Part shown: piece after piece, positions 27,090 through 46,343 of the stretch
How positions within the stretch are numbered: position 1 is the first letter of the stretch
Layout: the number at the start of each line of letters is the position of its first letter
Source of the DNA: an uncultured Bacteroidales bacterium
GTDB lineage: Bacteria; Bacteroidota; Bacteroidia; Bacteroidales; UBA932
Direction: 5' to 3'
Assembly (NCBI GenBank): GCA_947302175.1
Contig: CAMYVB010000004.1
Coordinates: forward strand, 38,692-102,691
Length of the DNA stretch: 64,000 nt
The notes under the pieces: model-generated
The model's input: only the letters and a program-made list of their open reading frames with translations
What the model was told of the DNA's origin: nothing
Databases searched by the model: none
Made by a program: the position numbers and the translations under genes

Positions 27090-27095
27090 AACTGC

Positions 27096-30000
27096 TTACT
27101 CGTTGATGTAGTGGACATGATAGAACCTCAGGCCATTGCCGCCGGCGTAGATGTACACTTCGCCTGCAGCGATGCTGAACTCGGTCTCGACGGGGCCGTC
27201 ATTGACGCTGTAACCGCCGGGAAGAGTCTGGACGTTACCGTCGACACTGACGGTAACTACCCTGGTGAGATCCTGGCTGCTGCCGGTATTGGTGGCCCAG
27301 ACCTTCAGGGTTCCCGCCTCGGGAGCGGTGAACTTGAAGAAACGGTCGGAGGTCGAACCCTTGCCGCCCATCTGGATGTAGGTGGTGTTGTACTTCGACT
27401 TTGCCTTGGAGTAGAACTGGAGGCCGTCGACAGTGAGATCCCAGTTGGTGATATCGGTGCCGGCTGCGCCGTATTTGGCGAATTCAGTCTGCCATACAGC
27501 GGAGGAGAAATCCCAGTCGTACTCTATGACGGGAGGCTCATAGGTAAATTCAACCTTGTAGAACCTCAGGGCATTGCCACCTGCATAGATGTACACTTCG
27601 CCGGCTGCAATGTCAAACTCGGTCTCAACGGGTCCGTCGTTGACGCTGTAACCGCCGGGAAGGGTCTGGACATTGCCGCCTACAGAGACGGTAACCACCC
27701 TGGTGAGATCCTGGCTGCTGCCGGTATTGGTGGCCCAGACCTTCAGGGTTCCCGCCTCGGGAGCGGTGAACTTGAAGAAACGGTCGGAGGTCGAACCCTT
27801 GCCGCCCATCTGGATGTAGGTAGTGTTGTACTTCGACTTTGCCTTGGAGTAGAACTGGAGGCCGTCGACGGTGATATCCCAGTTGGTGATATCGGTGCCT
27901 GCTGCGCCGTACTTGGCAAATTCGGTCTGCCATGCGGCGTCAGAGAAGTCCCATGTCAGGGTCACAGTCTTGCCGGCGGGCTTTGCAACGAGGGTGAAGG
28001 TGGCTTCAGCAGCCTCGGAGGCGACCCACTTGGAAGAAGTGGCGACGGGACGTGCGACTACGGTGACGGGATACTCACCGACCTTCAGGGCTGCGATTGC
28101 CTCGGCGGAGATGGTCAGTGAGGTCTCAGTGAGGACGCTTTCGCTTCCGTTGAAGGTGAGGACATAATCGGCTGCGTTCTCAACCACGTTCCAGGAGAAG
28201 GTGACGGGTACTATCTCGTCTTCCTGCACCTTGGCGGGAGAAACGGTGAGCTTAGGAGTGGAGAGAGGAGTGGCTGCGGGATCGGGAGTGAGATCCTTTG
28301 TCCAAACGACTTTCTTCAGCGTTGCGGCGGAATTGGCAATCACATAGAGGCTGTGTTCGCCTTCCAGGTCGCCAAGGAGGACCTTGTGGGCCTGTCCGTC
28401 GGCGAGGACTGCATAGCGGTCGCCGCCTGCGAGGACCTGGAACGAGCCAAGGCCGTTCGCGCTCTCACCTGTCACCACGAGGGCGCCGTAGCCGGCGGTG
28501 AGGACTTCCACTGCTGAATAAACAGGCACGCCTATTTCATCGAGAGCGGCAGTCTTCGAGAAGTTGATGCCCTTGGACATGACCACATTGGCAGGAACGG
28601 AGGCATTAGCATATATGCGGGCGTTGCCGATGATCGTGGGGGCGGTGATTTCCTCGGTGTCGTAGATAGTCTTCTCGGTGAAGTCCCAGGTGTACTCGTC
28701 GGGGGCGACGGTGAGCTCGGTGGGACGGATCACGACGGGCTGCACGGCATCCCACCAGCGGGGGTCACCGGCCTTGAGGGTCTTGATGAGCGCGCCGTTG
28801 GTGCCGTCCAGGTAGAGCTTGCCTGCGATGGAGTTGATGCAAGGGTCATTGCTGAGGAGAGTGGCTTCGTTCTTGGCCACTTCCTCGAAGGTCTTGTCGC
28901 CCTGGGTGTCATCTGCGGCAGGGACTGCGGTTGACACATACCATGCATCTCCGGTGTTGTAGTAAACGTTGCCGGAGCAGTCGGGACGATAGGAGTCGGT
29001 AGAATTGCGGCAGAGGCGCACCCAGGTAGTGGTGGCGTCTTCCTTCTCGCTGAACTCGTTAAGGAACACGTTCTTGACAGCCTTGACGCTGTGGGCGCCG
29101 GTCTTTACACGGACGGCGAATATACCGGCGTTGTTGGAAGAGCTGTTGGTGGCGGTAACGAGATTGAAGGTGCAGTTCTCGGCGAGTACGCTTTCGACCG
29201 TCGCATTGTCGGACATACGGAAGAAAGTACGAGCGCAGGCGTAGAAGGTGGAGTTGCTCACGGTGAAGCTGCCGTTCGAGCCGGCGCGCACGTCGATGAA
29301 GTCACCGCCTTCGGTTCCGGCTGCGTTGATATCGTGCACATAGCAGCCGTCAACGAGGAACTTAGCCACGCTGGCCGCAGAGGCGCTGCTGGCAACTGAG
29401 TAGATAGCCTTGGCGTAACCGGTAATCTCGCAGTTGACGTACTCAATGGCGGTCATGCCGGCGGAGAGGTTCTCAGTGAGAGCACCTGTTCCGGCGCCGT
29501 CCAGGACGAGGTCCTCAAGATGGAGGACGGTGGATCCTGAAGCGAGGTCGAACACGGCAGTCTTGATCGTAGGCTTGACGCCTGCCTCTGTGGCATTACC
29601 ATAGAGGTAAACGTCACCGGTGACGTTGATGAGCTTCTTTGCGGGATCGGGATAGGCGTCCATCATGTCCACTCCGGCGTCGGAATAGTCGAGAAGGAGC
29701 TTGATAGTGCCGCTCTGGTTGTTTATGGCGGCATAGAGCTCGGCAGCAGTCTTGACGGTGCTGACGCCGTCGATGGAGGGACGGGTGAATGCGGTAACGG
29801 AGCCGCGGTTGCCGGCCTTACCGAAAAGGAGGGTGAAGCGGTATTCGCGGGCTGGGTCGAGACCTTCGATGGTCTTGGAGGCAGCTGCAATCTCTGCAGC
29901 GCTGACCGCCACTTTCACTCCTTCCCCATCGCCCAGGACCTTTTCCACCCTCACGGAAGTGAGGTCAGCCTTGTCAGCAGCGTCGTCCCAGCTGAGGGTG

Positions 30001-30473
30001 ACGGAGCTGCTGGTGCGGGCAGTGATCGTGGGATTGAGGGAGCTGCGTACGGCGGATGTCGAGAAGGTCTTCTCGAGATAGGTCCAGTTGGAGGCGGGGA
30101 CGACACTGCTGATACCCCTTACGCGGGCATAGAATGACTTGTCGACCTCCAGGCCGTAGACGGTATAGGGCACTTCGTCGGCGGCGATGATGTAGGTATC
30201 GCCGACCTTGATGCCGGTATTAGCGGTAGAGACCTCTTTGGAGTCGTCGACCTGCTCGTAAATTTCGAGCTCGTAGCCTTCCGCATTGGCCATTTTCTGC
30301 CAATTCAGGACGACGTCGGTACCGGTCGAAGGAACGACCTCGGCGTCGAACTTGAGCGGAGAGAGAACCCTGCCGTACTCGATTTCCTCGACTACGGGAT
30401 CCAGGGTGCGGCAGCCTGCGAAGGCGAGTCCTGCTCCGAGGAGGATAAGAAGGGATTTGTATATTCTATTCAT
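27096..30473 (-). CDS. SusE-position surface lipoprotein: Fn3-like and pectate-lyase-like beta-helix domains with duplicated tail module
   Basis: A 1125-residue lipoprotein starting at MNRIYKSLL, lipobox ending at Cys21; the track start at 30506 overlaps susD. In order: two fibronectin-III-like domains (about 25-215), a parallel-beta-helix region (about 225-560, VLHLEDLVLDGAGTG, IEYVNCEITGYAKAIYS) like the DUF4957/DUF5123 proteins of pectin loci, another Fn3-like segment, and two nearly identical C-terminal modules spaced 146 residues apart (WDFS, WQTEFAKYGAAGTDITNW, YIQMGGKGSTSDRFFKF). I see no lyase catalytic site. The modules are probably carbohydrate-binding. Its place right after susC-susD suggests a surface glycan-binding protein. 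Confidence 0.8.
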   Translation of the reverse strand: MNRIYKSLLILLGAGLAFAGCRTLDPVVEEIEYGRVLSPLKFDAEVVPSTGTDVVLNWQKMANAEGYELEIYEQVDDSKEVSTANTGIKVGDTYIIAADEVPYTVYGLEVDKSFYARVRGISSVVPASNWTYLEKTFSTSAVRSSLNPTITARTSSSVTLSWDDAADKADLTSVRVEKVLGDGEGVKVAVSAAEIAAASKTIEGLDPAREYRFTLLFGKAGNRGSVTAFTRPSIDGVSTVKTAAELYAAINNQSGTIKLLLDYSDAGVDMMDAYPDPAKKLINVTGDVYLYGNATEAGVKPTIKTAVFDLASGSTVLHLEDLVLDGAGTGALTENLSAGMTAIEYVNCEITGYAKAIYSVASSASAASVAKFLVDGCYVHDINAAGTEGGDFIDVRAGSNGSFTVSNSTFYACARTFFRMSDNATVESVLAENCTFNLVTATNSSSNNAGIFAVRVKTGAHSVKAVKNVFLNEFSEKEDATTTWVRLCRNSTDSYRPDCSGNVYYNTGDAWYVSTAVPAADDTQGDKTFEEVAKNEATLLSNDPCINSIAGKLYLDGTNGALIKTLKAGDPRWWDAVQPVVIRPTELTVAPDEYTWDFTEKTIYDTEEITAPTIIGNARIYANASVPANVVMSKGINFSKTAALDEIGVPVYSAVEVLTAGYGALVVTGESANGLGSFQVLAGGDRYAVLADGQAHKVLLGDLEGEHSLYVIANSAATLKKVVWTKDLTPDPAATPLSTPKLTVSPAKVQEDEIVPVTFSWNVVENAADYVLTFNGSESVLTETSLTISAEAIAALKVGEYPVTVVARPVATSSKWVASEAAEATFTLVAKPAGKTVTLTWDFSDAAWQTEFAKYGAAGTDITNWDITVDGLQFYSKAKSKYNTTYIQMGGKGSTSDRFFKFTAPEAGTLKVWATNTGSSQDLTRVVTVSVGGNVQTLPGGYSVNDGPVETEFDIAAGEVYIYAGGNALRFYKVEFTYEPPVIEYDWDFSSAVWQTEFAKYGAAGTDITNWDLTVDGLQFYSKAKSKYNTTYIQMGGKGSTSDRFFKFTAPEAGTLKVWATNTGSSQDLTRVVTVSVDGNVQTLPGGYSVNDGPVETEFSIAAGEVYIYAGGNGLRFYHVHYINE
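27112..27955 (-). repeat. In-gene tandem duplication, 438-bp period
   Basis: The 3' end of the SusE-position gene holds two copies of one module offset by 438 bp (GAACCTCAGG at 27123 and 27561). Stretches of more than 110 bases are identical at DNA level, including synonymous positions, so the duplication or its last gene conversion is recent. The frame is preserved at 146 codons. Confidence 0.85.
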
Positions 30474-30486
30474 AATCTTCGGGGTT

Positions 30487-32475
30487 TTAGAGCTGGTCAT
30501 AACCATAGTCGTTCACCAGTGCACCCTGCATGGCGTTCATAGTAGCTGCATACATGGGCCATACGGACCTCGGATAAGGATCGTCGTAGGCATTGCGATA
30601 CAAGCAGTTGAAAGTGTAGTTACCGGTTGTGGCGTTGATGAAGGCCTCGGTGCTGATGTAGCTTTCCTGAACCTTCCAGCCGTTGGGCTCGGTGACGGAG
30701 TAATCCGAAGGAGTCTTACCGATTTCGTCGCTGTCGAGACCGAAGAAGACTATCTTCTGGGACGCATGGTCTTCCTTCCAGAAGATGGGATAGGCCTTGT
30801 AGGTCCTGTCGTCCTTGGTCTTGTCTTTAGCATAAGGAGCATAGGCGGCATAGGCACCGGTCATGTTTGCGAGGTCGCTCAGGTCGCTGCTCTCTTCGTC
30901 GAGGGCGGTCTTGAGGAGTTTCCAGCGGATGAGATCCTGCTTGCGGAGGAACTCGCCTGCGAACTCGAGGGCCCTTTCCTGGAAGATTGCGCCGAGGATG
31001 GTGGCAGGATTTGCATGGTCTGCTTCCATACCGGAGCCGTCGGAAGAGGCGCTGCCCAGCGTCAGGTCGTTGACTGCGGTGTATTTGGTTGCAGTCTTGC
31101 CAGCCATAGCGCGGTCGCGCACCTGTCCGAGATAGTTCTTGGCGCCTACGAGGTCGCCCTGGTAGGCGGCAAGTTCGGCAGCCATCAGGAGAACGTCGGA
31201 ATAGCGCATGATGATGGGCTTGATGCCATCGTCGTTACCACCGTTGTAGGGATTGGTAATCATCCATTCATAGCGGTACTTGCCCCAGAACCAGTAGTTG
31301 ACTGCGCCACGCAGTTCCCATTCCTGGGTCTCACCGTTCCAACGCATGTTGACTGCGGTAAGATCCCTGCGGGAGTCGTTGCTGTCGTATTTGAACCAGA
31401 GGTTTGCGGTGGGGAAGGAGCTGCCGCCACGGGCGCTGTTGTTGGTGATCCAGGGACCGCCGGCGCTGTGGGGATAAGCGTGAGTGTAGTTCCAGCGGCC
31501 GCGGGAGTCGCTCAGAGGCATTACCCAGAGGACCTCGGGGACACCGGTCAGGTGCTCGGAGTTGTTGAACTTCTTCCAGAACTGCTCATAATCACCAGCA
31601 AGAGAGGCCGTACCGGAAGTGATGACGTCCTTGAGGTGCTGCAGGGCCTTGGGATAAAGGACTGCGGCGGAGAGCTCGGGGTCGGTGGTCAGGCGGAGTG
31701 AGCCGGGGTTGCCGGTGCCGACTTTACCCTCGTCGGGGCGGAAAGACCAGCCGGCGGCAGAAAGGGCGATGCGGGCGTAGAGACCCTTGGCGAAAGCCTT
31801 GTTCATGCGGTCGCGACGTACGGTCTGGCCTTTCTCGTCGGGCCAGTAGAGATATCCTATGGCCTCCTCGAGGTCGGCGAGGATGACCTTGTAGATTTCA
31901 TCCCTGTCGCTCTTGGTCTGGTAAATAGTCTCGGAAGAAACGGGCTCGGTGCGGAGAGGGACTTCGCCCCACATCTTCACAAGCTCGAAGTAGAAGAATG
32001 CACGGTAGGTCAGGGCTTCACCGAGGAGATAAGCCATGTCGGGGTTTTTGTCCACCTCGCCATAGGTCCTAAGGCCCTTTATGCAGAGATTTGCACGCTC
32101 AAGGCCGGCGACGATTTCGTTGTAGGCGTTGGTGGCGGTGCTCATCTGGACATTGGTCGTAAAGTCGTTGTATTCCGCCATGCGGATACGGGCGTCGACG
32201 GACTCCAGGGCGGCATCGGTGGTGCCGGCCGAGTTGGAGCTGTAGAGCTCGATATCGGTATTCATGCCGTAGAAGGCATGGATACGGCCGCGGTAGGAAT
32301 TGGTGTGGCCGCAGACTTCGCCAATACCGAAGATGTTGTATTCGGCGAGGGTGTAGTTGGAGAACACCACGTCATCTGCGTATGAAGACTGGGAAGGAGC
32401 CTCGAGGAGGCCGTCCAGGCTATTGCAGGATGCGGCAAGAACGACTGCGAAAAGAATGCTGATATATTTTTTCAT
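30487..32475 (-). CDS. susD: SusD/RagB-family surface glycan-binding lipoprotein
   Basis: A 662-residue lipoprotein (MKKYISILFAVVLAASC) partnering the SusC transporter as the lid that captures oligosaccharides at the cell surface. The TPR-like N-terminal region is typical (YNEIVAGLERANLCIKGL, LGEALTYRAFFYFELVKMWG, VPLRTEPVS, DRDEIYKVILADLEEAIGYL). The C-terminal part has the RagB pattern ILGAIFQERALEFAGEFLRKQDLIRWK. It starts 11 bases after the susC stop. The ATG at 32481 (MNMKKY) is an equally possible start. Confidence 0.95.
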   Translation of the reverse strand: MKKYISILFAVVLAASCNSLDGLLEAPSQSSYADDVVFSNYTLAEYNIFGIGEVCGHTNSYRGRIHAFYGMNTDIELYSSNSAGTTDAALESVDARIRMAEYNDFTTNVQMSTATNAYNEIVAGLERANLCIKGLRTYGEVDKNPDMAYLLGEALTYRAFFYFELVKMWGEVPLRTEPVSSETIYQTKSDRDEIYKVILADLEEAIGYLYWPDEKGQTVRRDRMNKAFAKGLYARIALSAAGWSFRPDEGKVGTGNPGSLRLTTDPELSAAVLYPKALQHLKDVITSGTASLAGDYEQFWKKFNNSEHLTGVPEVLWVMPLSDSRGRWNYTHAYPHSAGGPWITNNSARGGSSFPTANLWFKYDSNDSRRDLTAVNMRWNGETQEWELRGAVNYWFWGKYRYEWMITNPYNGGNDDGIKPIIMRYSDVLLMAAELAAYQGDLVGAKNYLGQVRDRAMAGKTATKYTAVNDLTLGSASSDGSGMEADHANPATILGAIFQERALEFAGEFLRKQDLIRWKLLKTALDEESSDLSDLANMTGAYAAYAPYAKDKTKDDRTYKAYPIFWKEDHASQKIVFFGLDSDEIGKTPSDYSVTEPNGWKVQESYISTEAFINATTGNYTFNCLYRNAYDDPYPRSVWPMYAATMNAMQGALVNDYGYDQL

Positions 32476-32491
32476 ATTCATCGTCCCTTAT

Positions 32492-35400
32492 TTATTTGAT
32501 GATACATACGGCCACGCGGTTGGACTCGGGAGACTTGCTCTTGTCCTTGTCGCTGCCTGTGGCGGCGGAAGTAATGCGACTGGCACAGATGCCGGCCTTC
32601 TTGAGCATATCGGCAACGACTGCGGCCCTCTGCTGGGAAAGGGTCTTGTTGACCTCACGGGTGCCGGTAGCGCTGTCGGCGTAGCCGGTGATGACGATCT
32701 TTGCAGTGGGGTTGTCCTTGAGGATCTGGCAGATGCGTCCAAGCTTGAATGCCTCGTCGGGACGGATTTCAGCCTTGTTGATGACGAAGAAGAGCTCGTC
32801 CTCGTAGGTGTCCTTGAGAGTGGACACGGGGACTTCCTTAATGACTTCCTTGACAACGGGCTTTTCGACTATCTTCTCCTTGATGACCTCCTTGATGACT
32901 TCCTTAGCCTGTGCAACGGTAGCCTCAGTCTTGGGAGCGACATAGCCGCCGCCGAAGGTCAGGTTGACGCCGAAGACATAGCTGTGGCTCTTGGGATAGG
33001 CAGAGTAGTCCACGTTGGGAGTCAGAGGAGTGGAAGTACGGGTGTCGACTTCAGGGTCGTAGCCGGAGTAAGGAGTCAGGACGAAGACGTTGTTCGCAGT
33101 AGCATAGAGACGCAGCTTTGCGATATTGACCTTCTGGGTGAGCTTCTCGGGAAGGGTGTAGCCGAGGGTAAGGTTGGACAGACGGAGGTAAGATGCATCT
33201 TCCAGAGCGTAGGACTGGCTGATACGGCGGGTATTGTAGGGAGCCCACATGGTCTTACCTGCGTTCAGGGCGCGCAGACGGTCGGGATCGGTGATGAATT
33301 CACCGGTCTCCCAGTCGACGTTGGTCCAACGGTTGGATGCAGACATCTCAGTTATCACGTTCTGGCCGGCAACGCCGCGAATGGTGCTGAAATCCACCTT
33401 GTTGGCATTGTAGACCTTGTTGCCGTAGCTGTAGGTGAAGTTGGAGCTAAGGTCGAAGCCATAGAGATAGCCGGAGAGGGAGAAACCACCGGTCAGGAGA
33501 GGCTGGACGTTGCCGAGCAGGGTGATATCACTCTCGTTGATGGCACCGTCGCCGTTCGTATCGACGAGTTTCATGGCACCGGGCCTTGCGGCATAACCGG
33601 TCACGGAAGAAGCGTCAGGAATGCCGGGAAGGAGAGTCCAGACGTTGGTAGCGGGATCGTAACTGAAGTCGTCGACAGTGTACATGCCGTCGTTGACATA
33701 GCCGTACACGTCGCCGAGAGGCCTGCCTTCCTTTACTACGAAGTCGTAGGCTATTTCGGAAGAGAACATGCCGGCGTTAGCCTGGATACGGTCAAGACCG
33801 CCGAGGCTGGTCACCACGTTCTGGTTGAAGGAGACGTTGGCGTCGACATTCAGGCCGTAGTTCTTGTGCTGTAGTATGATGCCGCCGAGCGTGAACTCGA
33901 TACCGCGGTTGCGCACGGAACCGAGATTGCGGTACTGGTAGTCATAACCCGAACCATTGACGGGGAAGCGGATGAGAAGGTCCTTGGTATCGGCCTGATA
34001 GACTTCGACGCTGCCGTAGAGACGGCTGCGGAAGAGGCTGTAGTCCAGACCGATGTTATGGGAATAGGTGGTCTCCCACTTGAGGTCGGCGTTGGGCATG
34101 TCGGTGCCTGCACCCCACCATACGCTGCCCTGGCTTATCCAGGATGAAGCGTGGGCCGAGTACTCCTGGAGAGTCTTGCCTGCGGGGATGTTGTTGTTAC
34201 CGGCGGTACCGAAGCTGTAGCGGAGCTTGAGGTTGTCGAGCCAGCCGGCGGTGCCGGCCATCCAATCCTCACCGGTGATGCGCCATGAAGCTGCGACTGA
34301 AGGGAAATAGCCCCAGCGGTTGCCCTTGGTGAACTTGGAGGAGCCGTCGGCACGCATCGTGGCGGAGAGCTGGTACTTATCCTTGAAGCTGTAGTTTACG
34401 CGGGCGAAGAAGGAGAGTATCTTGTCGTCCCTGGAGTAGGAGTTGTTGATGGAATGGGGGGCTTCGCCTGAAGCCATGAAGTTCCATGCCATCTGGGAGT
34501 CAAAGAAGTCCGGCAGACCGTCGAGCACGGTGTCGAAGGTATTGGACTTGGTCTGGATATACTCTATACCGCCCAGGACGTCCAGCTTGTGAACTTCAGG
34601 GAGTATCTTCTTGAAATTGTAGGAGAGGGTGTTGGTGCTGCGCAGTTTGCGGCGGGTAAGGTCTATCCACTCTGTGGCGGGGTTCACGTTGTAACCTGCA
34701 ATGGTATTGTTGCGCACATAGTAGGAGGTCAGGCCGTAGAACTTGTCGTCGGTGCGGCGATACTCATCGAGACCGCCCTCGAGACGGAGCTTGAGATTGT
34801 CGATGATGGTCCACTGGAATGCGCCGTTGGCGGTCCACTGGGTACGGTTCTGGCGGCTGTCGCTGTCGGCTATGGCAACGAGGGGATTGACCGAACTGTT
34901 GTAGTCTTCCTCAAGGTCGCTGTCGCTCATTACGGATTCGGCGGGGATGGGAGAATAGACTATGGAGTTCTTGAGACGGGACTGGGAAGTCGAGCCGCGG
35001 TCGTTGATGGCGTTGGCGCCGGCGCCGGTCACCTTAGTGTTGGCGTAACGGACGTTGACGTCGAACAAGATCTTCTTGTTGGGAGTGAACTGGCCCTTGA
35101 AATTGAGGTTGTTACGGGCGAAGTCGGAACCCTGCATGATGGCTGTTTCGTCGAGGTGAGCGTAGCCGAGGGTCCACTTGAACTGCTCGGAGCCGCCGGA
35201 GATGCTGACGTTGGCGGAGAGGTTGTAGCCGGTGCGTCCGAATACCTGGTCCACCCAGTCGTTTGTCTTCATGCCCTTGTAGAGGTCCATATCGGAGAAG
35301 GAGCCGTAACGGGACTCATAGAAACTCGACACGTTGTCCTTGTAGAGGGCGTACTCATACTGGGTGCGGACGAAGTCGTAGGCATCCTGAGGCACGAAGG

Positions 35401-36157
35401 CATTCTTGTTGGCCATGTTCTTAAAGCCTGCATAGGCATTGAAGTTGACCGTGATCTTGCCTTCCTTACCGCTCTTGGTGGTGACGATGACGACGCCGTT
35501 TGCGCCGCGGCTACCGTAGATAGCCGTGGAGAAGGCGTCCTTCAGGACGTCGATGGACTGGATGTCGGAAGCGGGGATGTCGGAGATTGATTCCATGGGG
35601 AAGCCGTCCACGATGTAGAGAGGGCTGCTGTCCTGGGTGATGGAGCCTGAGCCACGAACGCGGATCTTGATGTCTGCGTCGGGGTCGCCTTCGGTGGTGG
35701 TGATCTGGACGCCGGCCATCTTACCGGACATTGCCTCGGTGACTGATGCCACGGGGACCTGGGTCAGGGCTTCCGAGCTCACTGACGAGACGGAACCCAT
35801 CACGTCGCGGCGGGAAACCGTGGCATAACCTACCACAACCACTTCATCGAGGAAGTTGGCGTCTTCTTTCATCACGACATCGATCTGCGTGCGACCGTTG
35901 ATAGGAACCGTCTGGTCACTGAGGCCGATGAAGGAGAAAACGAGGTTCTTCGCATCTGCGGGAACGGAGAGCTCATAGTCTCCGTCGAGGCCGGTGACGA
36001 CACCGATCTGTGTGCCTTCGACGAAAACTCCGGCTCCCATGAGGGGCTCTCCACCTTCATCCGTCACGACGCCACGAATGGTCGTCTGGGCGGACAGGGA
36101 GAGGCTCAAGGCGAGTCCCATCAGCGCAAGAACGAGTTTCTTTGCTTGATGTTTCAT
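32492..36157 (-). CDS. susC: SusC/RagA TonB-dependent transporter with C-terminal OmpA domain
   Basis: A 1221-residue outer-membrane protein. A signal peptide (about 1-24) is followed by a CarboxypepD-regulatory-like domain (TTIRGVVTDEGGEPLMGAGV), TonB box DEVVVVGY, plug domain (LYIVDGFPMESISDIP, AIYGSRGANGVVIVTTK) and a 22-strand-type barrel ending near residue 1068 in YVFGVNLTF, where a normal SusC would stop. Here a Lys/Glu/Val-rich linker (AKEVIKEVIKEKIVEKPVVK) and an OmpA-like domain (about 1113-1221) follow, with TGYADSATG, NKTLSQQRAAVVADML and SNRVAV; the Asp and Arg that bind diaminopimelate in OmpA are present. The tail would sit in the periplasm and could tether the transporter to peptidoglycan. 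There is no frameshift at the junction. Confidence 0.95.
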   Translation of the reverse strand: MKHQAKKLVLALMGLALSLSLSAQTTIRGVVTDEGGEPLMGAGVFVEGTQIGVVTGLDGDYELSVPADAKNLVFSFIGLSDQTVPINGRTQIDVVMKEDANFLDEVVVVGYATVSRRDVMGSVSSVSSEALTQVPVASVTEAMSGKMAGVQITTTEGDPDADIKIRVRGSGSITQDSSPLYIVDGFPMESISDIPASDIQSIDVLKDAFSTAIYGSRGANGVVIVTTKSGKEGKITVNFNAYAGFKNMANKNAFVPQDAYDFVRTQYEYALYKDNVSSFYESRYGSFSDMDLYKGMKTNDWVDQVFGRTGYNLSANVSISGGSEQFKWTLGYAHLDETAIMQGSDFARNNLNFKGQFTPNKKILFDVNVRYANTKVTGAGANAINDRGSTSQSRLKNSIVYSPIPAESVMSDSDLEEDYNSSVNPLVAIADSDSRQNRTQWTANGAFQWTIIDNLKLRLEGGLDEYRRTDDKFYGLTSYYVRNNTIAGYNVNPATEWIDLTRRKLRSTNTLSYNFKKILPEVHKLDVLGGIEYIQTKSNTFDTVLDGLPDFFDSQMAWNFMASGEAPHSINNSYSRDDKILSFFARVNYSFKDKYQLSATMRADGSSKFTKGNRWGYFPSVAASWRITGEDWMAGTAGWLDNLKLRYSFGTAGNNNIPAGKTLQEYSAHASSWISQGSVWWGAGTDMPNADLKWETTYSHNIGLDYSLFRSRLYGSVEVYQADTKDLLIRFPVNGSGYDYQYRNLGSVRNRGIEFTLGGIILQHKNYGLNVDANVSFNQNVVTSLGGLDRIQANAGMFSSEIAYDFVVKEGRPLGDVYGYVNDGMYTVDDFSYDPATNVWTLLPGIPDASSVTGYAARPGAMKLVDTNGDGAINESDITLLGNVQPLLTGGFSLSGYLYGFDLSSNFTYSYGNKVYNANKVDFSTIRGVAGQNVITEMSASNRWTNVDWETGEFITDPDRLRALNAGKTMWAPYNTRRISQSYALEDASYLRLSNLTLGYTLPEKLTQKVNIAKLRLYATANNVFVLTPYSGYDPEVDTRTSTPLTPNVDYSAYPKSHSYVFGVNLTFGGGYVAPKTEATVAQAKEVIKEVIKEKIVEKPVVKEVIKEVPVSTLKDTYEDELFFVINKAEIRPDEAFKLGRICQILKDNPTAKIVITGYADSATGTREVNKTLSQQRAAVVADMLKKAGICASRITSAATGSDKDKSKSPESNRVAVCIIK

Positions 36158-36199: not shown

Positions 36200-38071
36200 T
36201 TATAATCTGGTATATGCTCCACCCACGGTCTGGCCGGCGACAATGTCCTTGACAAGATAGTGGAGATACATTTCAATATTGTCGTAGCGTCCGTTCTTGT
36301 CGAGGGTCTTAAGGAGCGCGTCAGCATTGGAAGTCTTATCCAGGCTGAAGCTATCCTCGAACCAGTCGGGTATGCCGTCCAAGTCGGTGTCCGTGCAGCG
36401 GGCGAGTTCTTCGGACGTGGCGTTATACGAGGGCCAGGCGGAGCCGTACTTTGCCTTCACATCATCAATATTATTGACTATTGCGCCAGTCCTGTCCTTG
36501 ACTTCCTTGCAAATCCTGAGATCAACGGCATCGCTGCGGAGCGAAGCGCCGCCGTATTTGCACACAATTTCCAGGGCGTCGGCCGCGGAATGGGTGGTAG
36601 TATAAACTGCCTTTCCGTCCGCTCCGCTGATGGAAAGGGGCGAAGTCAGGACATGACCGTCGTAGGAGAGGGAGTAGTCGGAATAAGCCTTCTTCCAATA
36701 GATTCCGCCGGGATATTTCGAGCTGCCCTCGGGATACTGCGTGCTGTAGTTGCCGGAAAGGAAGAGATAGGCCCAGTCGTAGGGGAAGCATTGTGTTACA
36801 TCATCAATCTTGGTGCTGTAACCGCCGTCCGCCTCAATGAAATAGGGCTTATCGTTGGAATTTGGGCCTGCCTTGTAGTAGTTGTTCACCAGGTTGAAAT
36901 GGCCGCCTTCGCCGCCGTAGCATCCGTTGCTCGAGCCCCAGTTGTAATTGACGCAGTTGCGGTAGTCCACATTGCCGCGATAAGTCTCGGTGGAGACGTT
37001 GTTGCCGTCGTATAGATACTGGTGGTCGAAGCGGGGCGTACGGTTCTGGTGGTGTGCGAGGAGATTGTGGTGGAAACTGGCGTTCTTTCCTCCCCAGATG
37101 CCGCCGTATCCGTGTTCGCCCTTGCTGTGGATGGTCTTCTGCAATGATTCGGCGATGATGCACCACTGCATGGTCATTGCGGAGTTAGCATAGAATGAAG
37201 CGCATTCGTCTATGGACCAGCTCATTGAGCAGTGGTCCAGGACTATGTTGCTGTGGTAGCGGCCCCAGATGCAGTCCTCGCTGTCACCGGCATTCGGACC
37301 TTCATCACCCAGCCTAAAGCGCATGAAGCGGAATATTACGTTGTCGGCATTGACGTTGATAGTGTAGTTCTTGACGCATATGCCGTCGCCGGGAGCGGTC
37401 TGGCCCGCAACGGTGAGGTTGCCGTTGTTTATCTGAATCTTACTTTGCAGCTCAATGATGCCAGAAACTGCAAACACCACGATGCGCGCGCCTGAGGCGG
37501 TGAGCGCAGCGCGGAGCGAGCCTTCGCCACTGTCATTGAGATTGGTGACGCGGATGACGCGGCCGCCGCGACCGCCGGTAGTGTACATTCCGCCGCCCTC
37601 AGCACCGGGGAATGAGCGCGCGACTCCGTCCTCTTCCGCAGCGGGAATGAGGAATTTTTCGTAATGCTCGTAGTGAGTGCCCGGGTCGGGACCGGGAGGG
37701 GTCGGGGGCGTCACTTCACCGCCCGGCACTCCGGTAAGCTCAGAAGACCATGCGGAATTCTCCTCTCCCGCGACTGAGCGGACATAGAAGGAATACTCCA
37801 CACCTTTCGTCAGACCGTCAATTATGGCCACGGTATTGCGCGTAGTGCCCGTCTGGACCTCGCTGCCGTTCTGCAGCAGGCGCCAGGCATACGACTGGGC
37901 ACCCTCCGCCGCATTCCACTGGAAAATCAGCGAATGGTCGGTGTAGCGGTTGAGAGTTATGCCTGTCGGAGTGGCGGGAGTCACGACGCCGGGATTGACC
38001 GGGTCGTCACCGCCGCAAGCGAAAAGCATCAGCAGCGACAGAGGCAGTAGAATCTTCAATAACTTATTCAT
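36200..38071 (-). CDS. Pectate lyase (PL1 family), lipoprotein with N-terminal Fn3 domain
   Basis: Cleaves polygalacturonate by beta-elimination, leaving unsaturated ends. The 623-residue lipoprotein (MNKLLKILLPLSLLMLFAC) has a fibronectin-III-like domain (about 35-125), a Pro-rich linker (TPPTPPGPDPG) and a PL1-type parallel beta-helix starting at ARSFPGAEGGGMYTTGGRGG. In the helix, NVIFRFMRFRLGDE, DCIWGRYHSNIVLDHCSMSW and HHNLLAHHQNRTPRFD carry the calcium-binding Asp residues and the likely catalytic Arg. The start overlaps the end of the GH105 gene by 8 bases. It is followed by susC after 42 bases, the widest gap in the operon. Confidence 0.88.
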   Translation of the reverse strand: MNKLLKILLPLSLLMLFACGGDDPVNPGVVTPATPTGITLNRYTDHSLIFQWNAAEGAQSYAWRLLQNGSEVQTGTTRNTVAIIDGLTKGVEYSFYVRSVAGEENSAWSSELTGVPGGEVTPPTPPGPDPGTHYEHYEKFLIPAAEEDGVARSFPGAEGGGMYTTGGRGGRVIRVTNLNDSGEGSLRAALTASGARIVVFAVSGIIELQSKIQINNGNLTVAGQTAPGDGICVKNYTINVNADNVIFRFMRFRLGDEGPNAGDSEDCIWGRYHSNIVLDHCSMSWSIDECASFYANSAMTMQWCIIAESLQKTIHSKGEHGYGGIWGGKNASFHHNLLAHHQNRTPRFDHQYLYDGNNVSTETYRGNVDYRNCVNYNWGSSNGCYGGEGGHFNLVNNYYKAGPNSNDKPYFIEADGGYSTKIDDVTQCFPYDWAYLFLSGNYSTQYPEGSSKYPGGIYWKKAYSDYSLSYDGHVLTSPLSISGADGKAVYTTTHSAADALEIVCKYGGASLRSDAVDLRICKEVKDRTGAIVNNIDDVKAKYGSAWPSYNATSEELARCTDTDLDGIPDWFEDSFSLDKTSNADALLKTLDKNGRYDNIEMYLHYLVKDIVAGQTVGGAYTRL

Positions 38072-39236
38072 AGTCAGCTTCATATATAAGCGCAGCGCGA
38101 ATCAGCGCACCCATGCCTTTAGGGTCGTTGTCGCACACCGGCTCATTTATATAATAATCATAGTCTCCTTTTCGCATCTGCTTTCCGCCAAGGCCGGCGA
38201 CTGAACAGCAATTCGTGAGCGAAACAAGGCCGCCTTCATCCTCGCGGATGAAAGTGTCCCTTAGCGATCGGAAAAGCGAGGCGGCATAGTCGCCATCCAC
38301 CTCTCCCCTACGAGCAGCCTTGAGATAGGAATAGACAAACATGGCGCTGCAGGTCGACTCAAGATAATTCCCCTCCGCTCCGGGACGATCGAGCACCTGG
38401 TACCACATATGAGTGTCAGCGTCCGCCCACAGGGGCAGCACTTCAAGTATGCCCTTAAGTATGTTTTCGAGCGCATGGCGGCGGGGATGCTCCTCGGGGA
38501 AGAGCTCGAGAACGTCAGTGAGCGCCACGGTGTACCAGCCGAGGGCCCTCCCCCAGCAATGGGCTGACTGCCCGGTCACGGAGTCTGCCCAGAACATGGA
38601 GCGGCTCTCATCCCATGCGTGGCGCCAAAGGCCAGTCGCAGGATCGTAAGTCCTGGCGGCAGCAACTTCAAACTGCAAAGCAACATCGTCCCAAAGGCTG
38701 CCCAGCCCCCTGGAAGAGATATACTCAGCGTAGAAAGGCTCTCCCATGTAAAGCCCGTCGAGCCACACTTGATTGGGATAGACATCCTTATGCCAGAATG
38801 CTCCGGCCTCGGTGCGTGGCTGCTCCTGCAGCTGGGCGAAAATGAAATCCTCAGCCTTGGAATATTTATCCCTGGGGCGCAGGCGGTTCAGGGTAAAGAG
38901 CGTGCGTGCAGGGCAAATGTGATCTATATTATGCTTCGAGCGCTTGTAGTTTGCACCAACGGTGCCGTCCTCGGCAATAATGGCGTCGTACCAGGCATCG
39001 ACGTAATCAAGAATCGTTTCATCCCCACAATCCTCATAGACGTCGAGGAAGGAAAGCAGCTCGAGGCCGGTGGTGTAATTCCACTTGAGCTCACCACCCT
39101 TGCCGTCGAGATACGAAGCCTCAGGGCAGCGGGCCATTTCCGAGCGCACGATACGCAGCGAAAGAGGCTCCCCCTGTTTTTGCGAGCAAGCGGCGAAAGC
39201 GAGCGCCAAAGCGCAAATAGTCAATACTTTCCTCAT
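38064..39236 (-). CDS. GH105 unsaturated rhamnogalacturonyl/galacturonyl hydrolase, lipoprotein
   Basis: Removes the 4,5-unsaturated uronate left at the non-reducing end by pectate or rhamnogalacturonan lyases. The 390-residue protein has a lipobox at Cys17 (ALALAFAAC) and an (alpha/alpha)6-barrel pattern: ELKWNYTTGLELLSFLDVY, the key Asp in NQVWLDGLYMGEPFYAEY, and HCWGRALGWYTVALTDVLE. The product feeds KduI and KduD, encoded in the divergent arm. It lies 5 bases after the esterase gene and overlaps the pectate lyase start. Confidence 0.92.
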   Translation of the reverse strand: MRKVLTICALALAFAACSQKQGEPLSLRIVRSEMARCPEASYLDGKGGELKWNYTTGLELLSFLDVYEDCGDETILDYVDAWYDAIIAEDGTVGANYKRSKHNIDHICPARTLFTLNRLRPRDKYSKAEDFIFAQLQEQPRTEAGAFWHKDVYPNQVWLDGLYMGEPFYAEYISSRGLGSLWDDVALQFEVAAARTYDPATGLWRHAWDESRSMFWADSVTGQSAHCWGRALGWYTVALTDVLELFPEEHPRRHALENILKGILEVLPLWADADTHMWYQVLDRPGAEGNYLESTCSAMFVYSYLKAARRGEVDGDYAASLFRSLRDTFIREDEGGLVSLTNCCSVAGLGGKQMRKGDYDYYINEPVCDNDPKGMGALIRAALIYEADYE

Positions 39237-39241
39237 TAGTA

Positions 39242-40915
39242 CTACTTATTAACGTAAGGGTCCCAGACTATTCCGTCCTGCTTCTGGAACATAACCTTTT
39301 CGAAACTGTACTCACCTGCCTGCTTTGCGCTGAGCTTGTGCGCCCACTTGACGCGCGGGCCGCGGGCGCCGGGCCCCTTGGAGCCGTACTCGGCATAGAA
39401 GGAATTCTTCTTGGTGTCGGGCTTGCCGGGCTTCTCCCAGTCGTGCCAGCCTTCGGGAAGGATGTGGGAACCGAGCTCGCAGTCGATGAAAACCGTCTTG
39501 GCGTAAGCGCCCCAGGGGCGGCCCAGGTAGCATTTGTCAATGCCCTCGGCGGCCGTGAGACGGCAATTCTTGAATACGTAGCCGTACTTCTGAGCGGGCA
39601 GGGTCGAAGCGGCCGTCACGTAGCTGTTTTTCTTGGAATGTATGGTGCAGTTCTCGAAATAGGCTATGGAGGGGCCGAAGATGAAATCGGTCGTTCCCTC
39701 TATGTAACAATCCAGGAAGTAGTTGCGCTTGATGCCTCCGTCCTTTCCGTAGCGGCCGTAGGTGTAGAGCGTATCCTGGTTGCCTATGAAGCGGCATCCC
39801 TTGAAGAAGAGGAAGTCGCCGTCAGTGAATACCGCCACCGCCTGCCCGACAGCCTTGCCTTCCCCGGAACTGTTCTCGAAGGTGATGCCCTCGAAAGTCA
39901 CGTAGCTGGAATGGACATAGACTGAAGCGCTGCCGGAAGTGCCTATCTTGAAGTCGCTACCGCTCCATTTCTTTTCAGCGTATTTGTCGAAGGTTATGAT
40001 TGTCGAAAGGGCGTCCTCGCCCTTGATGTTGAGACGGAACTTGTTGTGGGGTATGGTCACCTGCTCCTTATATACGCCCTTGCGGATGAAGATAGTGGTA
40101 ATCTCGGCGTGGCTGTAGTCGGGACAGGCGTCTATTGCTTCCTGCACGGTCATATAATCACCGTGTCCGTCGGGAGAAACCACTATGTCGTAGTAGCAGA
40201 AGTGCACGGCAATCTCGGGAATCTGCTCCCTTATCTTGTCGCAGACTATTTCCGTCACCTTGCGGGCGCCGGAGGCGACAGTGTGGGTATTGTCTGTCTT
40301 TCCTTCGGGAGCGCAGGCGTACTTGCCGGGAGCAAGGTGCATGAAGTAGGGCCTCGAGGCCTCATCGCCAAGGGACTCTATCCAGTCGAGAGTGGGGGTG
40401 GTGATATCGAGAAGGGTGACTCCCTTTTCCTCGGCGACTGCCTTCATTGCGGCGGGATAGTCGCCGTGGCAGTTGCGGTCGAGACCGGCCTCCTTGAACC
40501 AGCGGCGGGCGACGGGAGTCAGTAGGACGGGGATGCCGCCCTTGGAGCGGGTCTCGTCGATAAAGCGCCTCAGATTGTCCTGATAGGCTCCCCAGGGGGC
40601 TGCATAACGCTCGGGATCGCTCTCCTTGGCATCGTTGTGGCCGAATTCGATAAAGACATAATCCCCGGGCTGCAGGGCGGCCATAACGTCATCCCATTGC
40701 CCCTTATCGATGAAACTCTTAGTGCTGCGGCCGTTGCGGGCATAGTTGATTACGCTGACTCCTTCGTCGAAGAAATTCGGGAACATCATGCCCCAGCCGC
40801 GTTCGGGACTGCCTTTTGACAAATCTTTCTCGGCCATCGTGCTGTCGCCGCAGAGATGGATGGTAAAAGAACTGGCGCTCAGCCAGACAAGTGCTAGTAG
40901 CAGGAGTTTCTTCAT
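39242..40915 (-). CDS. Fused rhamnogalacturonan acetylesterase (CE12) and pectin methylesterase (CE8)
   Basis: A 557-residue secreted protein with two esterases. Residues of about 18-235 are an SGNH hydrolase of CE12 type: FTIHLCGDSTMAE with the catalytic Ser, INYARNGRSTKSF, FIEFGHNDAK and the Asp/His pair in DNTHTVASGA. Residues of about 240-545 are a CE8 beta-helix: GHGDYMTVQEAIDACPD, the two catalytic Asp residues in FIGNQDTLYTYGRYG and YIEGTTDFIFG, and the Arg in YLGRPWGAYAKTV. It would strip acetyl and methyl esters from pectin so that PL1 and GH28 can act. It overlaps the GH28 gene by 4 bases. Confidence 0.94.
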   Translation of the reverse strand: MKKLLLLALVWLSASSFTIHLCGDSTMAEKDLSKGSPERGWGMMFPNFFDEGVSVINYARNGRSTKSFIDKGQWDDVMAALQPGDYVFIEFGHNDAKESDPERYAAPWGAYQDNLRRFIDETRSKGGIPVLLTPVARRWFKEAGLDRNCHGDYPAAMKAVAEEKGVTLLDITTPTLDWIESLGDEASRPYFMHLAPGKYACAPEGKTDNTHTVASGARKVTEIVCDKIREQIPEIAVHFCYYDIVVSPDGHGDYMTVQEAIDACPDYSHAEITTIFIRKGVYKEQVTIPHNKFRLNIKGEDALSTIITFDKYAEKKWSGSDFKIGTSGSASVYVHSSYVTFEGITFENSSGEGKAVGQAVAVFTDGDFLFFKGCRFIGNQDTLYTYGRYGKDGGIKRNYFLDCYIEGTTDFIFGPSIAYFENCTIHSKKNSYVTAASTLPAQKYGYVFKNCRLTAAEGIDKCYLGRPWGAYAKTVFIDCELGSHILPEGWHDWEKPGKPDTKKNSFYAEYGSKGPGARGPRVKWAHKLSAKQAGEYSFEKVMFQKQDGIVWDPYVNK

Positions 40916-42378
40916 AGCGTTTTACCGTTGATGGTCACATTGTCGAAGCTGATGTCTTCGGCGTAGTTCTGATAAATATCCTTAGCGGCAGTAAAGCAGC
41001 TGTTATGGAAGTCCAGACCCTTGAGCGGAAGCTCGGGAAGGCCGTTGATGTAGATTGCCTCACGGCCGGCGCCGTTACATACTATGTCGGAGAAATGGAT
41101 GTCGCGGAACTCGGGCGTGGTTTCATCCACGGGAGGAAGGTCGGCGCTGGAGGCGTCCTTCATCTCAGAAGCGGCCACTCCGGCATAGTAGAGATTGAAT
41201 ATCACGCCGTAGGTCACTATATCTTTCATATAAATATGGTCGCACCATATATCCTTTACGAGACCTCCGCGGCCGCGGGTGCTCTTGAACCTCAAGCCCA
41301 CGTCGGTGCCCATGAAGCGGCAGGAGCGCACGAGTATGTTCTCCACACCGCCGGACATTTCGCTGCCCACGACGAAGCCGCCGTGACCGTGATAGACCGT
41401 GCAGTCGGAAATGATGAGATTGCGGCACTTGCGCGCGTGACGGCGGCCGTCGGCGTCCTTGCCGCTCTTTATGCATATGGCATCGTCGCCCACGTCGAAG
41501 ACGGAGCCGGTCAGGATGACGTTCTCGCAGGCATCGATGTCGATACCGTCGCCGTTAGTGGAATAATGGGGATTGCGGACGCTTATGTTCCTGATTATTA
41601 CATTTTTGCACCAGAGGGGATGGAGATTCCAGCAAGGGGAATTCTGGAAGGTAACCCCTTCGAGCAGGACATTCTCGCACTCGCGGAAAGACAGGAGCAC
41701 GGGGCGAAGGAAGGTCTTAATCTCGTTTTCGTCGAGCGAAGGATCGGGATAGTTGAGGCTTCCGGCGGTGAGGCGGGCCTTGTAGTAACCGGAGTCGGGG
41801 TACCAGGCATAGCCGTTCTCTGCGACGACTCCTCCCCTTTCCAAAGTAGATTTCCAAATCTTTTCTCCCACCTTGGCCCTCTTGAGCTCGCGCCAGGCGT
41901 CGCCGTTGCCGTCGATGACGCCGCCACCGGTGATGGATATGTCATGGACGCCTTCTGCATGGAGGGGTGAAGTGCAGCGGCGCACGTCGAGGCCCTCGAA
42001 ATTGGTGTCGATGATGGGATAGAGGTCCTGGTCGGTGCTGAACACTATTATCGCGTCGTCGTCGAGATGGAGGTCTATGTTGCTCCTGAAAGCAATGGGG
42101 CCGGTGAACCATATACCTGCGGGGACGTTCAGATGGCCTCCGCCTTTGTCGGAAAGGGCCTGCATGGCCTTTTCGAAAGCTTCGCAGTTGAGGGTAACTC
42201 CGTCGCCCACTCCGCCAAAGTCGCTGAGAGAAACGTTAAAATTGGGGATTGCAGGCTCTTCGACTCCAGGCATGTCGAAGGGCAGATCCTTGTAAAGCGC
42301 GTCATAGCGTCCCTTTTCGCAATTGCATGAAAGGACGCCTAGAAGGCTTAAGAAAAGTATTAGTGGTTTTCTGGTCAT
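40912..42378 (-). CDS. GH28 polygalacturonase, lipoprotein
   Basis: Hydrolyses alpha-1,4-galacturonosyl bonds (endo- or exo-acting cannot be told). The 488-residue lipoprotein starts at MTRKPLILFLSLLGVLSC; the track start at 42405 lies inside the GH43 gene. All GH28 signature elements are readable: NGDGIDIDAC, GDDAICIKSGKDADGRR, the GHGG motif in VYHGHGGFVVGSE and the Arg-Phe-Lys in GLRFKSTRGRGG. The N-terminal FNVSLSDFGGVGDGVTLN is also typical. Four-base overlap with the following esterase gene indicates translational coupling. Confidence 0.94.
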   Translation of the reverse strand: MTRKPLILFLSLLGVLSCNCEKGRYDALYKDLPFDMPGVEEPAIPNFNVSLSDFGGVGDGVTLNCEAFEKAMQALSDKGGGHLNVPAGIWFTGPIAFRSNIDLHLDDDAIIVFSTDQDLYPIIDTNFEGLDVRRCTSPLHAEGVHDISITGGGVIDGNGDAWRELKRAKVGEKIWKSTLERGGVVAENGYAWYPDSGYYKARLTAGSLNYPDPSLDENEIKTFLRPVLLSFRECENVLLEGVTFQNSPCWNLHPLWCKNVIIRNISVRNPHYSTNGDGIDIDACENVILTGSVFDVGDDAICIKSGKDADGRRHARKCRNLIISDCTVYHGHGGFVVGSEMSGGVENILVRSCRFMGTDVGLRFKSTRGRGGLVKDIWCDHIYMKDIVTYGVIFNLYYAGVAASEMKDASSADLPPVDETTPEFRDIHFSDIVCNGAGREAIYINGLPELPLKGLDFHNSCFTAAKDIYQNYAEDISFDNVTINGKTL

Positions 42379-42401
42379 TAGCTTGGTGTTGTGGTGGTTT
42401 A

Positions 42402-44219
42402 TCATGGAGCGCCGGGGCTCAGCGTTATTTCAGTAATATCGAGACAGCCGGAATCGTTACTCGGGGCAAAGCGGGAGCAGAAAAAGCCGAAGCGGGCGCC
42501 CACCCAGGTGCCGGCCTTGGCGGTAAAAGTACCACCGGCCTTGCTGAACCTGCGGCCGTCTGTGCTGTAGCTAAAGCTGCACCGGGCGTCAGGCACATTG
42601 CCCCTGGCCGGTGAAGGCCCGACTTCGAGACGCACCCAAATCGAGGCTTCGGGAATGTCCTCGTACCTAAGCTCGGGGACGCTTCGGGACTGGCGTGAGT
42701 GCTCCACGCCAAGGAACGAGTACGGAAGGGTGGCAAGGACGCGAACCTCTTCGCTGCCGCCTTCGGGGGCATCAAGGCAAAGCGCATATTCCAGGCGCGC
42801 TCCGCCGGGGGTGTCCATGAGGCGAAGGGCGGCATAGTCGCTGCCCATAACGGCAAATCCGGCCTGCTGGGCGGCGTCCTTAGCCTTGGGATTGGGGCGG
42901 AAGCTGAGTTTTGCAGTAAGGGAAAAGCTTTCGAAGGGGAACTTCCTGCTAAGGAAATTGGGGCAATTCCACAACGATGCTTCAGCGTCGCTTTGAAGGA
43001 CTCCGTAGAGGCGCACGCCACCATCGGGAAGCGCCATATGCCATATGGGAGAGGGTACGCAAGGGTACTGCCAGGCGGGGTCGAGGCCGTAGGGGCAAAA
43101 AACTTGCTCCTCGGCAATCTCACTTCCGCCGGAAGGCAGGGCATACTCAGGGACCGGGGCTCCGCAGCCGTCGCCGTCCGGGTCGTCCCCAATCACGGGC
43201 CAGCCTTCCGAATCCCAGCGCATGGGCTGGAGATGGATGATGCGGCCGTATGCTCCATTGTCCTGGAAATGGATGAACCAGTCTTCGCCCGAAGGGGTGC
43301 TCACCCAGGCGCCCTGGTGGGGGCCGTTTATTTCTCCGACATTAAGCGCAGAGGCATTTCCTTCGCGGCGGCTGCGCATTTCTGTCATGCGGCTGTGGCG
43401 CCTGCCGGGGATGACGGTCCTGCCGAAAAGGGTGCCAGGGGCCTCCTGCACATTTTCGGAGCTGCTCAGAACTATCCTCTCCTCGAAGGGGCCGAAAGGG
43501 CTTTCAGAGCGAAGGACGGTCTGCCAGCCTGTTGCGACTCCTCCCGCGGGCGCGAATATATAGTAGTAGCCGTCGCGCTTGTACATCTTCGTGCCCTCGA
43601 TGGTGGGCTGGGTGAGATGGCCGTCATAGACTACGCGGGAAGGGCCTTCAAGCCTACTGCCGTCCTTGGACATGGGGGCGACGAGGATTACGCTCTTGAG
43701 ACCAGCCCTCGAGCCGGCGAGGGCATGACTGAGATAAGCTTTGCCGTCCTCATCCCAGAAGGGACAGGGATCTATGAATCCCCTCTCCTTCACTACCCAG
43801 ACAGGTGCCTCCCACGGGCCTGAAGGGTCCTGGGTCCTCACCATGAAGATACCGCGGTCGGGGTCGCCGCAGAAGATGTAGAACCAGCCGTCGTGGAAGC
43901 GTATCGCGGGGGCCCACACGCCCTCTCCGTGCCTTACCACATTCCTGAAGCTCCCGTCCTTGAAACTTTCGTCATCTCCGGGGTAGTCGCTCAGGGCCGC
44001 TCCCACCTGGGTCCAGTGCACGAGGTCGCGCGAGTGGAGTATGGGGAGACCGGGGAAGAAGTTGAAGGACGAGGCGGTCATGTAGTAGTCCTCTCCGACG
44101 CGGCAGACGTCAGGGTCGGACCAGTCGCAGTGGAGTATGGGGTTGGCGTAGGCCTGAGCATGGCAAATTCCTGCTGTGGCCAGCAGGAACAATGCCATGC
44201 ATATTGCGACGCGCTTCAT
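42402..44219 (-). CDS. GH43 beta-xylosidase / alpha-L-arabinofuranosidase
   Basis: A 605-residue secreted protein (signal peptide to about residue 21). The five-bladed GH43 propeller has the base Asp in NPILHCDWSDPDV, the modulating Asp in ERGFIDPCPFWDEDG and the acid Glu in TQPTIEGTKMYKRDGYYY. A concanavalin-A-like C-terminal domain follows (about 400-605). In most relatives I recall, the strand ending ERIVL is followed within about ten residues by NGPHQGAW. Here about 40 Arg/Ser-rich residues (RRHSRMTEMRSRRE) intervene. The substrate is probably arabinose or xylose side chains of pectin. It is located between kdgK and GH28. Confidence 0.88.
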   Translation of the reverse strand: MKRVAICMALFLLATAGICHAQAYANPILHCDWSDPDVCRVGEDYYMTASSFNFFPGLPILHSRDLVHWTQVGAALSDYPGDDESFKDGSFRNVVRHGEGVWAPAIRFHDGWFYIFCGDPDRGIFMVRTQDPSGPWEAPVWVVKERGFIDPCPFWDEDGKAYLSHALAGSRAGLKSVILVAPMSKDGSRLEGPSRVVYDGHLTQPTIEGTKMYKRDGYYYIFAPAGGVATGWQTVLRSESPFGPFEERIVLSSSENVQEAPGTLFGRTVIPGRRHSRMTEMRSRREGNASALNVGEINGPHQGAWVSTPSGEDWFIHFQDNGAYGRIIHLQPMRWDSEGWPVIGDDPDGDGCGAPVPEYALPSGGSEIAEEQVFCPYGLDPAWQYPCVPSPIWHMALPDGGVRLYGVLQSDAEASLWNCPNFLSRKFPFESFSLTAKLSFRPNPKAKDAAQQAGFAVMGSDYAALRLMDTPGGARLEYALCLDAPEGGSEEVRVLATLPYSFLGVEHSRQSRSVPELRYEDIPEASIWVRLEVGPSPARGNVPDARCSFSYSTDGRRFSKAGGTFTAKAGTWVGARFGFFCSRFAPSNDSGCLDITEITLSPGAP

Positions 44220-46259: not shown

Positions 46260-46264
46260 CGGCG

Positions 46265-46272
46265 ACAAAGAT
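46265..46272 (-). promoter_or_regulatory. -7 element of lacI, implying a very short or absent leader
   Basis: On the minus strand this reads TATCTTTG, a perfect TAnnTTTG, ending only 5 bases before the lacI ATG (46259). A TTTG (plus-strand CAAA, 46295-46298) lies 22 bases upstream, slightly wide. If used, the transcript would start at or next to the ATG. The upstream TTTG overlaps the operator, which would allow autorepression. Confidence 0.5.
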
Positions 46273-46281
46273 ATAAAGAAT

Positions 46282-46312
46282 TTTGGAATTTGTGCAAACG
46301 TTTGTATATTTG
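46282..46312 (+). promoter_or_regulatory. Promoter of kduD-kduI arm
   Basis: TTTG (46282-46285) and TATATTTG (46305-46312) are separated by exactly 19 bases, a full match to the Bacteroidetes consensus. The predicted start is about 46318, 26 bases before the kduD ATG. The LacI-type operator fills the spacer. Confidence 0.8.
46293..46306. promoter_or_regulatory. LacI-family operator
   Basis: TGCAAACGTTTGTA matches the LacI-family pattern with central CG; the inner ten bases CAAACGTTTG are a perfect palindrome. It sits between the two elements of the kduD promoter and upstream of the divergent lacI, so a bound repressor would block both. Confidence 0.75.
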
Positions 46313-46343
46313 TAGTGAAATTTTTGCAAATCTTTAACTGACA

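Follow-up and report, generated by a model that had tools for sequence, protein, structure and literature searches.

The window—the 64,000-nucleotide stretch of DNA from an uncultured Bacteroidales gut bacterium analysed here—encodes a SusC transporter that continues in frame past its last barrel strand into an OmpA domain. We read it as part of a SusCD importer for pectin fragments, the SusC of which carries a swappable OmpA-type peptidoglycan tether, and give this reading a probability of about 0.62. The tether would be non-covalent and would confer a benefit such as mooring or envelope cohesion. The parts of this design are individually known; what looks new is that they are combined, that the combination recurs and that tails are exchanged among barrels.

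The fusion gene (32492..36157) lies on the minus strand, as do all features given for it below, and runs from an ATG at 36157 to a stop at 32492 as a single uninterrupted frame of 1221 aa. A probable signal peptide, predicted by eye from the sequence (residues 1–22, MKHQAKKLVLALMGLALSLSLS; 36092..36157), precedes a CarboxypepD_reg-like N-terminal extension (residues 27–108; 35834..36079; PF13715, CarbopepD_reg_2) and the plug domain (residues 116–222; 35492..35812; PF07715), and the Pfam family TonB_dep_Rec matches residues 428–836. Together, residues 26–1068 (32954..36082) form a complete SusC/RagA unit: the NCBIfam model TIGR04056 is matched over positions 2–981 of 981 with 836 bits (cut-off 368), and the TIGR04057 signature scores 61.9 bits (cut-off 46.2). 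This full-length match, the plug with its CarboxypepD_reg extension and a SusD-family lipoprotein as neighbour identify the protein as SusC/RagA; the N-terminal 8-strand barrel that defines an OmpA porin is absent, its place being taken by the SusC barrel. The last strand (...YVFGVNLTF) has residue 1068 (nt 32954) as its final residue; hence, the segment 32492–32953 consists of exactly linker, OmpA domain and stop codon. The linker (residues 1069–1122, 54 residues; 32792..32953) is rich in Lys, Glu and Val, is predicted with low pLDDT and is the loosest part by dN/dS in most pairs. It leads into an OmpA peptidoglycan-binding-type domain (residues 1123–1211; 32525..32791), which contains both TGYADSATG and LSQQRA and which an earlier note had recognised from the letters alone; the Pfam search places it above the cut-off of PF00691 (E 1.5e-15, 57.8 versus 27.2 bits). 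Asp1161 (32675..32677) and Arg1177 (32627..32629) align with the ligand residues of Pal and other OmpA domains and are, by these alignments, the equivalents of the diaminopimelate-binding Asp and Arg, which the note had said were kept.

Structure prediction agrees with this layout. For residues 23–1221, AlphaFold2 with a 31-sequence alignment gave a SusC barrel and a low-confidence linker at a mean pLDDT of 75.7, and the best PDB matches of the full model are 8aa4 (SusC of the dextran utilisome) and 6sln (RagA). Predicted alone, the tail adopts an OmpA fold with a pLDDT of ~90, the linker being disordered. The best matches to this predicted fold are 9uu2, OprF-C and A. baumannii OmpA-C (also in its complex with diaminopimelate, 3td4), with target-normalised TM-scores of 0.90 to 9uu2 and 0.77–0.79 to OprF-C and AbOmpA-C. 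The tail is closest to OmpA-porin-type domains (9uu2, 3td3/3td4), and the Pal–TolB entries 2hqs and 2w8b are also among the matches. The architecture proposed in the earlier note—a SusC barrel, an in-frame Lys/Glu/Val linker and an OmpA domain—is therefore borne out by Pfam, NCBIfam and AlphaFold2.

The gene is embedded in a set of minus-strand genes for carbohydrate use. The susD partner lipoprotein (30487..32481; PF07980/PF14322) begins 10 bp downstream and is followed by a surface protein with fn3 and DUF4957 domains (27096..30506), probably a SusE-like or glycan-binding member of the locus. On the other side, 36200..44219 encodes pectin enzymes: an fn3 protein, GH88/105, a pectinesterase plus GDSL esterase, GH28 and GH43. 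The fn3 protein (36200–38083) sits in the pectate-lyase position and might fill that role. Further locus genes encode a LacI regulator, a PfkB kinase, an altronate dehydratase, a mannitol-dehydrogenase-type oxidoreductase (UxaA/UxaB-type enzymes) and KduI. Judged by gene content, the locus is a homogalacturonan (pectin) utilisation locus; the GH28, pectinesterase, GH88/105, UxaA/UxaB-type enzymes and KduI around the fusion gene support the pectin context assumed earlier. The frame of the LacI regulator (45273–47093, minus strand) includes a long open stretch 5' of its likely start (MVTITDI...) with no recognisable domain, and long antisense frames on the plus strand (26394–28121, 30286–31701 and 32357–33874) most likely just reflect base composition.

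The fusion is not alone in its genome. A PF00691 search of the 1.92 Mb source assembly found three SusC-sized frames, one weak match and two stand-alone proteins, of which one is truncated at the end of its contig. Further SusC–OmpA fusions lie on contig 3 (L037:6286-10353, 1355 aa) and contig 11 (L038:6874-10863, 1329 aa), each with a susD gene behind it, and 3 of the 10 full-length SusCs of the genome are tailed. Altogether, we collected 36 fusions from uncultured Bacteroidales, namely ~20 genomes that belong to one family, the setting of which resembles GTDB family UBA932, and to at least two genera; the samples covered ~1200 genomes in total, with hit lists of limited length. Within the genus, which was sampled with 61 genomes, the matches listed for a profile of the tail include fusions from 7; a 300-genome sample added more fusion genomes from the same genus and from a second genus of the family, and every candidate region retrieved from the family proved to be a SusC with an OmpA-type tail in frame. 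Outside the source genome, no SusC-sized match was among those listed at a threshold of 1e-30 for 393 genomes of the order, which span 206 genera; the best matches listed for 396 genomes of the phylum contained none either. Fusions outside the family were hence absent from the matches listed for ~790 sampled genomes of order and phylum, with a profile that favours the tail type of the window and that rarer or unlike fusions elsewhere could escape. Neither of two other long frames with OmpA ends from the order, G045 (1411 aa) and G040 (907 aa), is a SusC fusion. The earlier note had taken the design for an unusual one and had proposed a domain search over SusC homologues: the architecture stands, whereas a one-off fusion it is not, as it recurs within one family and in three copies in the source genome.

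Orthologues of the window protein show how patchily the tail is distributed. Among 30 loci found with this protein (L071–L100), three are tailed: L071 (85% identity), which stems from a named MAG, L084 (59%) and the distant L099. The untailed orthologues that reach the gene end stop directly after the same last strand, with the same TF. A longer tblastn match had hinted at a remnant tail behind the stop of the tail-less L091; it is absent there, and susD comes next. Mapped onto a tree of the barrels alone, tail presence requires 7 changes—a count that takes in L099, which is distant, and L115, whose tail is divergent—of which at least 6 are forced by well-supported branches, and tailed L104 and untailed L076 are sisters with 100% support. 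Named orthologues are mostly from ruminant Bacteroidales MAGs, and some untailed ones belong to 'Candidatus Coprenecus'. The three named tailed relatives L071, L084 and L099 come from forestomach or abomasum (roe deer rumen, goat abomasum and cattle reticulum), the untailed ones from both rumen and hindgut, in numbers too small to support a trend.

Tails and barrels differ in their histories. Within single genomes, barrels are 19–53% identical and tails 35–99%, and the tail sequence does not track the barrel type. In the source genome, a stretch of 329 bp is identical between the tails on contig 3 and contig 11 (99.7% across the aligned domain), although their barrels have only ~50% protein identity, and the similarity drops off at both tail edges; in genome G012, the tails of L102 and L103 are 90% identical and their barrels 25%. 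The orthologues L139 (G341:C33) and L143 (G344:C20) display the converse: their barrel DNA is 98% identical and the linker largely common to both, whereas the OmpA module is only ~65% identical, before identity returns to 91–98% from ~70 bases past the stop. On this alignment, the OmpA module is replaced between nearly identical flanks. Tails hence look to have been passed between transporters by recombination; the mismatch of tail and barrel identities, the L139/L143 swap and the trees all favour the recombinational origin suggested beforehand. Since barrels that bear the tail often share just 20–30% identity, its function is probably generic rather than substrate-specific.

In a tree of the tails (112 columns, long-branch rows left out, bootstrap not fully settled), 34 fusion tails split from 22 stand-alone OmpA domains with support 97/94. 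They fall into two subgroups that coincide with the linker style, which is Lys/Glu/Val-rich in 29 tails and Ala-rich in 5. This topology allows for a single tail origin with subsequent spread. Two SusCs carry divergent OmpA-like tails, L115:3954-7796 (G020:C48) and L114:4879-8721 (G027:C29), which may have separate origins; in L115, where Asn replaces the ligand Asp, a second origin or a decay of binding is possible. As the fusion tails form a group apart from the sampled stand-alone OmpA porins, a recent capture of the window tail from a porin of the source genome is not supported: this tail groups with the other fusion tails, and the two stand-alone OmpA domains of the source genome, C15 and C5, fall elsewhere. 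A replacement of missing OmpA anchors by fusions is likewise not supported, as fusion-bearing genomes keep stand-alone OmpA proteins.

Such mobility raises the question of whether the tail does anything for its carrier. It might be a near-neutral module, spread by homologous recombination between OmpA-like sequences, that SusC tolerates at its periplasmic end. The patchy presence, the 329 identical bases shared by two fusions of one genome and the module replacement between nearly identical flanks would all fit. Yet the ligand residues are near-universal over the 36 fusion tails, with Asn and Arg in all of them and Asp in 35, L115 being the exception. The dN/dS of the OmpA domain is 0.04–0.34 in most orthologous pairs (0.17 for the window versus L071), although the swapped pair L139/L143 reaches 0.65. 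Constraint is usually weaker on the linker, which is 51–94 residues long over the fusions. By these ratios, fusion tails are under purifying selection. Moreover, the fusions are always in frame and the gene in the susD position is kept: 35 of the 36 have a lipoprotein-like gene there directly downstream—23 of these with detectable similarity to the three SusDs of the source genome—and only at L148 was no qualifying downstream ORF found at the locus. We therefore consider a near-neutral passenger unlikely.

For the peptidoglycan tether, the following mechanism can be envisaged. The SusC barrel would fold in the outer membrane as usual; past its last strand, the chain would run into the periplasm, where the flexible linker would hold the OmpA domain. 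This domain would bind peptidoglycan diaminopimelate with no covalent bond and thereby moor the importer to the wall; in A. baumannii OmpA, the equivalent Asp and Arg contact this very moiety (PMC10385648). With pectin-induced SusCD filling the membrane, every copy would add one membrane–wall link, and tethered copies would be restricted in lateral movement; they might also resist TonB pulling, as the note had suggested. F. johnsoniae has two distinct proteins, both highly abundant, as its wall anchor OmpA and its major SusC (PMC12611786); in the fusions, both functions would be joined in one chain. Counting against a tether, the majority of SusCs are tail-less, among them orthologues from loci of the same kind, stand-alone OmpA proteins are retained, so that the anchor is not required as their replacement, and one fusion, L115, is without the ligand Asp.

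Alternatively, the OmpA domain might mainly bind a protein—e.g., TolB, TonB–ExbBD or a periplasmic enzyme—and so serve not to hold the wall but to recruit this partner or to bring SusC close to energised TonB. OmpA-like domains can do so, as Pal–TolB among the fold matches illustrates, and the long linkers would suit such a reach; but the tail is nearest to OmpA-porin-type domains, keeps the ligand Asp and Arg and does not track the barrel type in its sequence, which makes a protein partner rather improbable. Still less is to be said for a tail that mainly helps barrel folding or assembly, or keeps SusC from vesicles, with no mooring in the mature membrane. In B. thetaiotaomicron, a peptidoglycan-binding orthologue of porin F does remain in the outer membrane and is kept from vesicles (PMC6222051). 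However, ordinary, tail-less SusC of that species mostly stays in the outer membrane as well (PMC6222051), so that keeping SusC out of vesicles may need no tail and vesicle retention alone is a weak explanation; close orthologues, in addition, evidently assemble without one. Finally, a false joining of separate susC and ompA genes by an assembly or frame artefact has practically no chance, even with a draft, MAG-like source assembly of 54 contigs, because 36 in-frame fusions recur across separate contigs and genomes with a conserved join position, and tail-less orthologues bear just a short gap before susD and no ompA remnant.

Several known systems resemble the tailed SusC in part. SusC/RagA transporters (TIGR04056; the dextran SusC 8aa4, RagA 6sln and BT1763 5t4y) share its N-terminal extension, plug, 22-strand-type barrel, SusD partner and setting in a polysaccharide utilisation locus; known members end at the last barrel strand, whereas the fusion runs on via a linker into the OmpA domain. 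Bacteroidota OmpA porins, which combine an 8-strand barrel with an OmpA C-terminal domain (F. johnsoniae Fjoh_0697, B. thetaiotaomicron BT_0418), are alike in the order of outer-membrane barrel, linker and C-terminal wall-binding-type domain and are related in domain sequence and linker style; the barrel of the fusion, however, is a large energised SusC importer, and its tail belongs to a clade of fusion tails separate from the stand-alone domains sampled. OmpA-family lipoproteins such as Pal (PF00691) have the same fold and ligand residues as the tail but are lipid-anchored and have no transporter attached. Oar-type TonB-dependent transporters, like the fusion, combine a TonB-dependent barrel with a CarboxypepD_reg N-terminus, and one Oar-like protein of T. 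forsythia has been labelled 'OmpA family' (PMC4604654). A survey of 34,893 TonB-dependent transporters sorts them by N-terminal architecture only and, in the passages found, leaves a C-terminal OmpA domain unmentioned (PMC6434023). The open-access literature, outside of which many subscription journals lie, yielded no published description of a SusC–OmpA fusion, in keeping with the earlier note, whose author knew of no such SusC.

Few outer-membrane proteins of Bacteroidota are as abundant as SusC proteins, yet to our knowledge their positioning within the envelope is poorly known. For this Bacteroidales family, we tentatively propose, at somewhat less than even odds, that wall mooring of importers is exchangeable: one OmpA tail lineage would recombine among unrelated SusC barrels, chosen SusCD systems would be tethered and membrane–wall adhesion would rise with locus induction. 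Within one kind of pectin locus, tailed and untailed orthologues, some of them sister pairs, form a natural comparison set that makes the effects of wall tethering on importer mobility, vesicle loss and uptake directly testable, and the tail itself is a ready-made module to anchor other outer-membrane barrels. Its recurrence on many unlike importers of one family suggests an exchangeable anchor for nutrient transporters.
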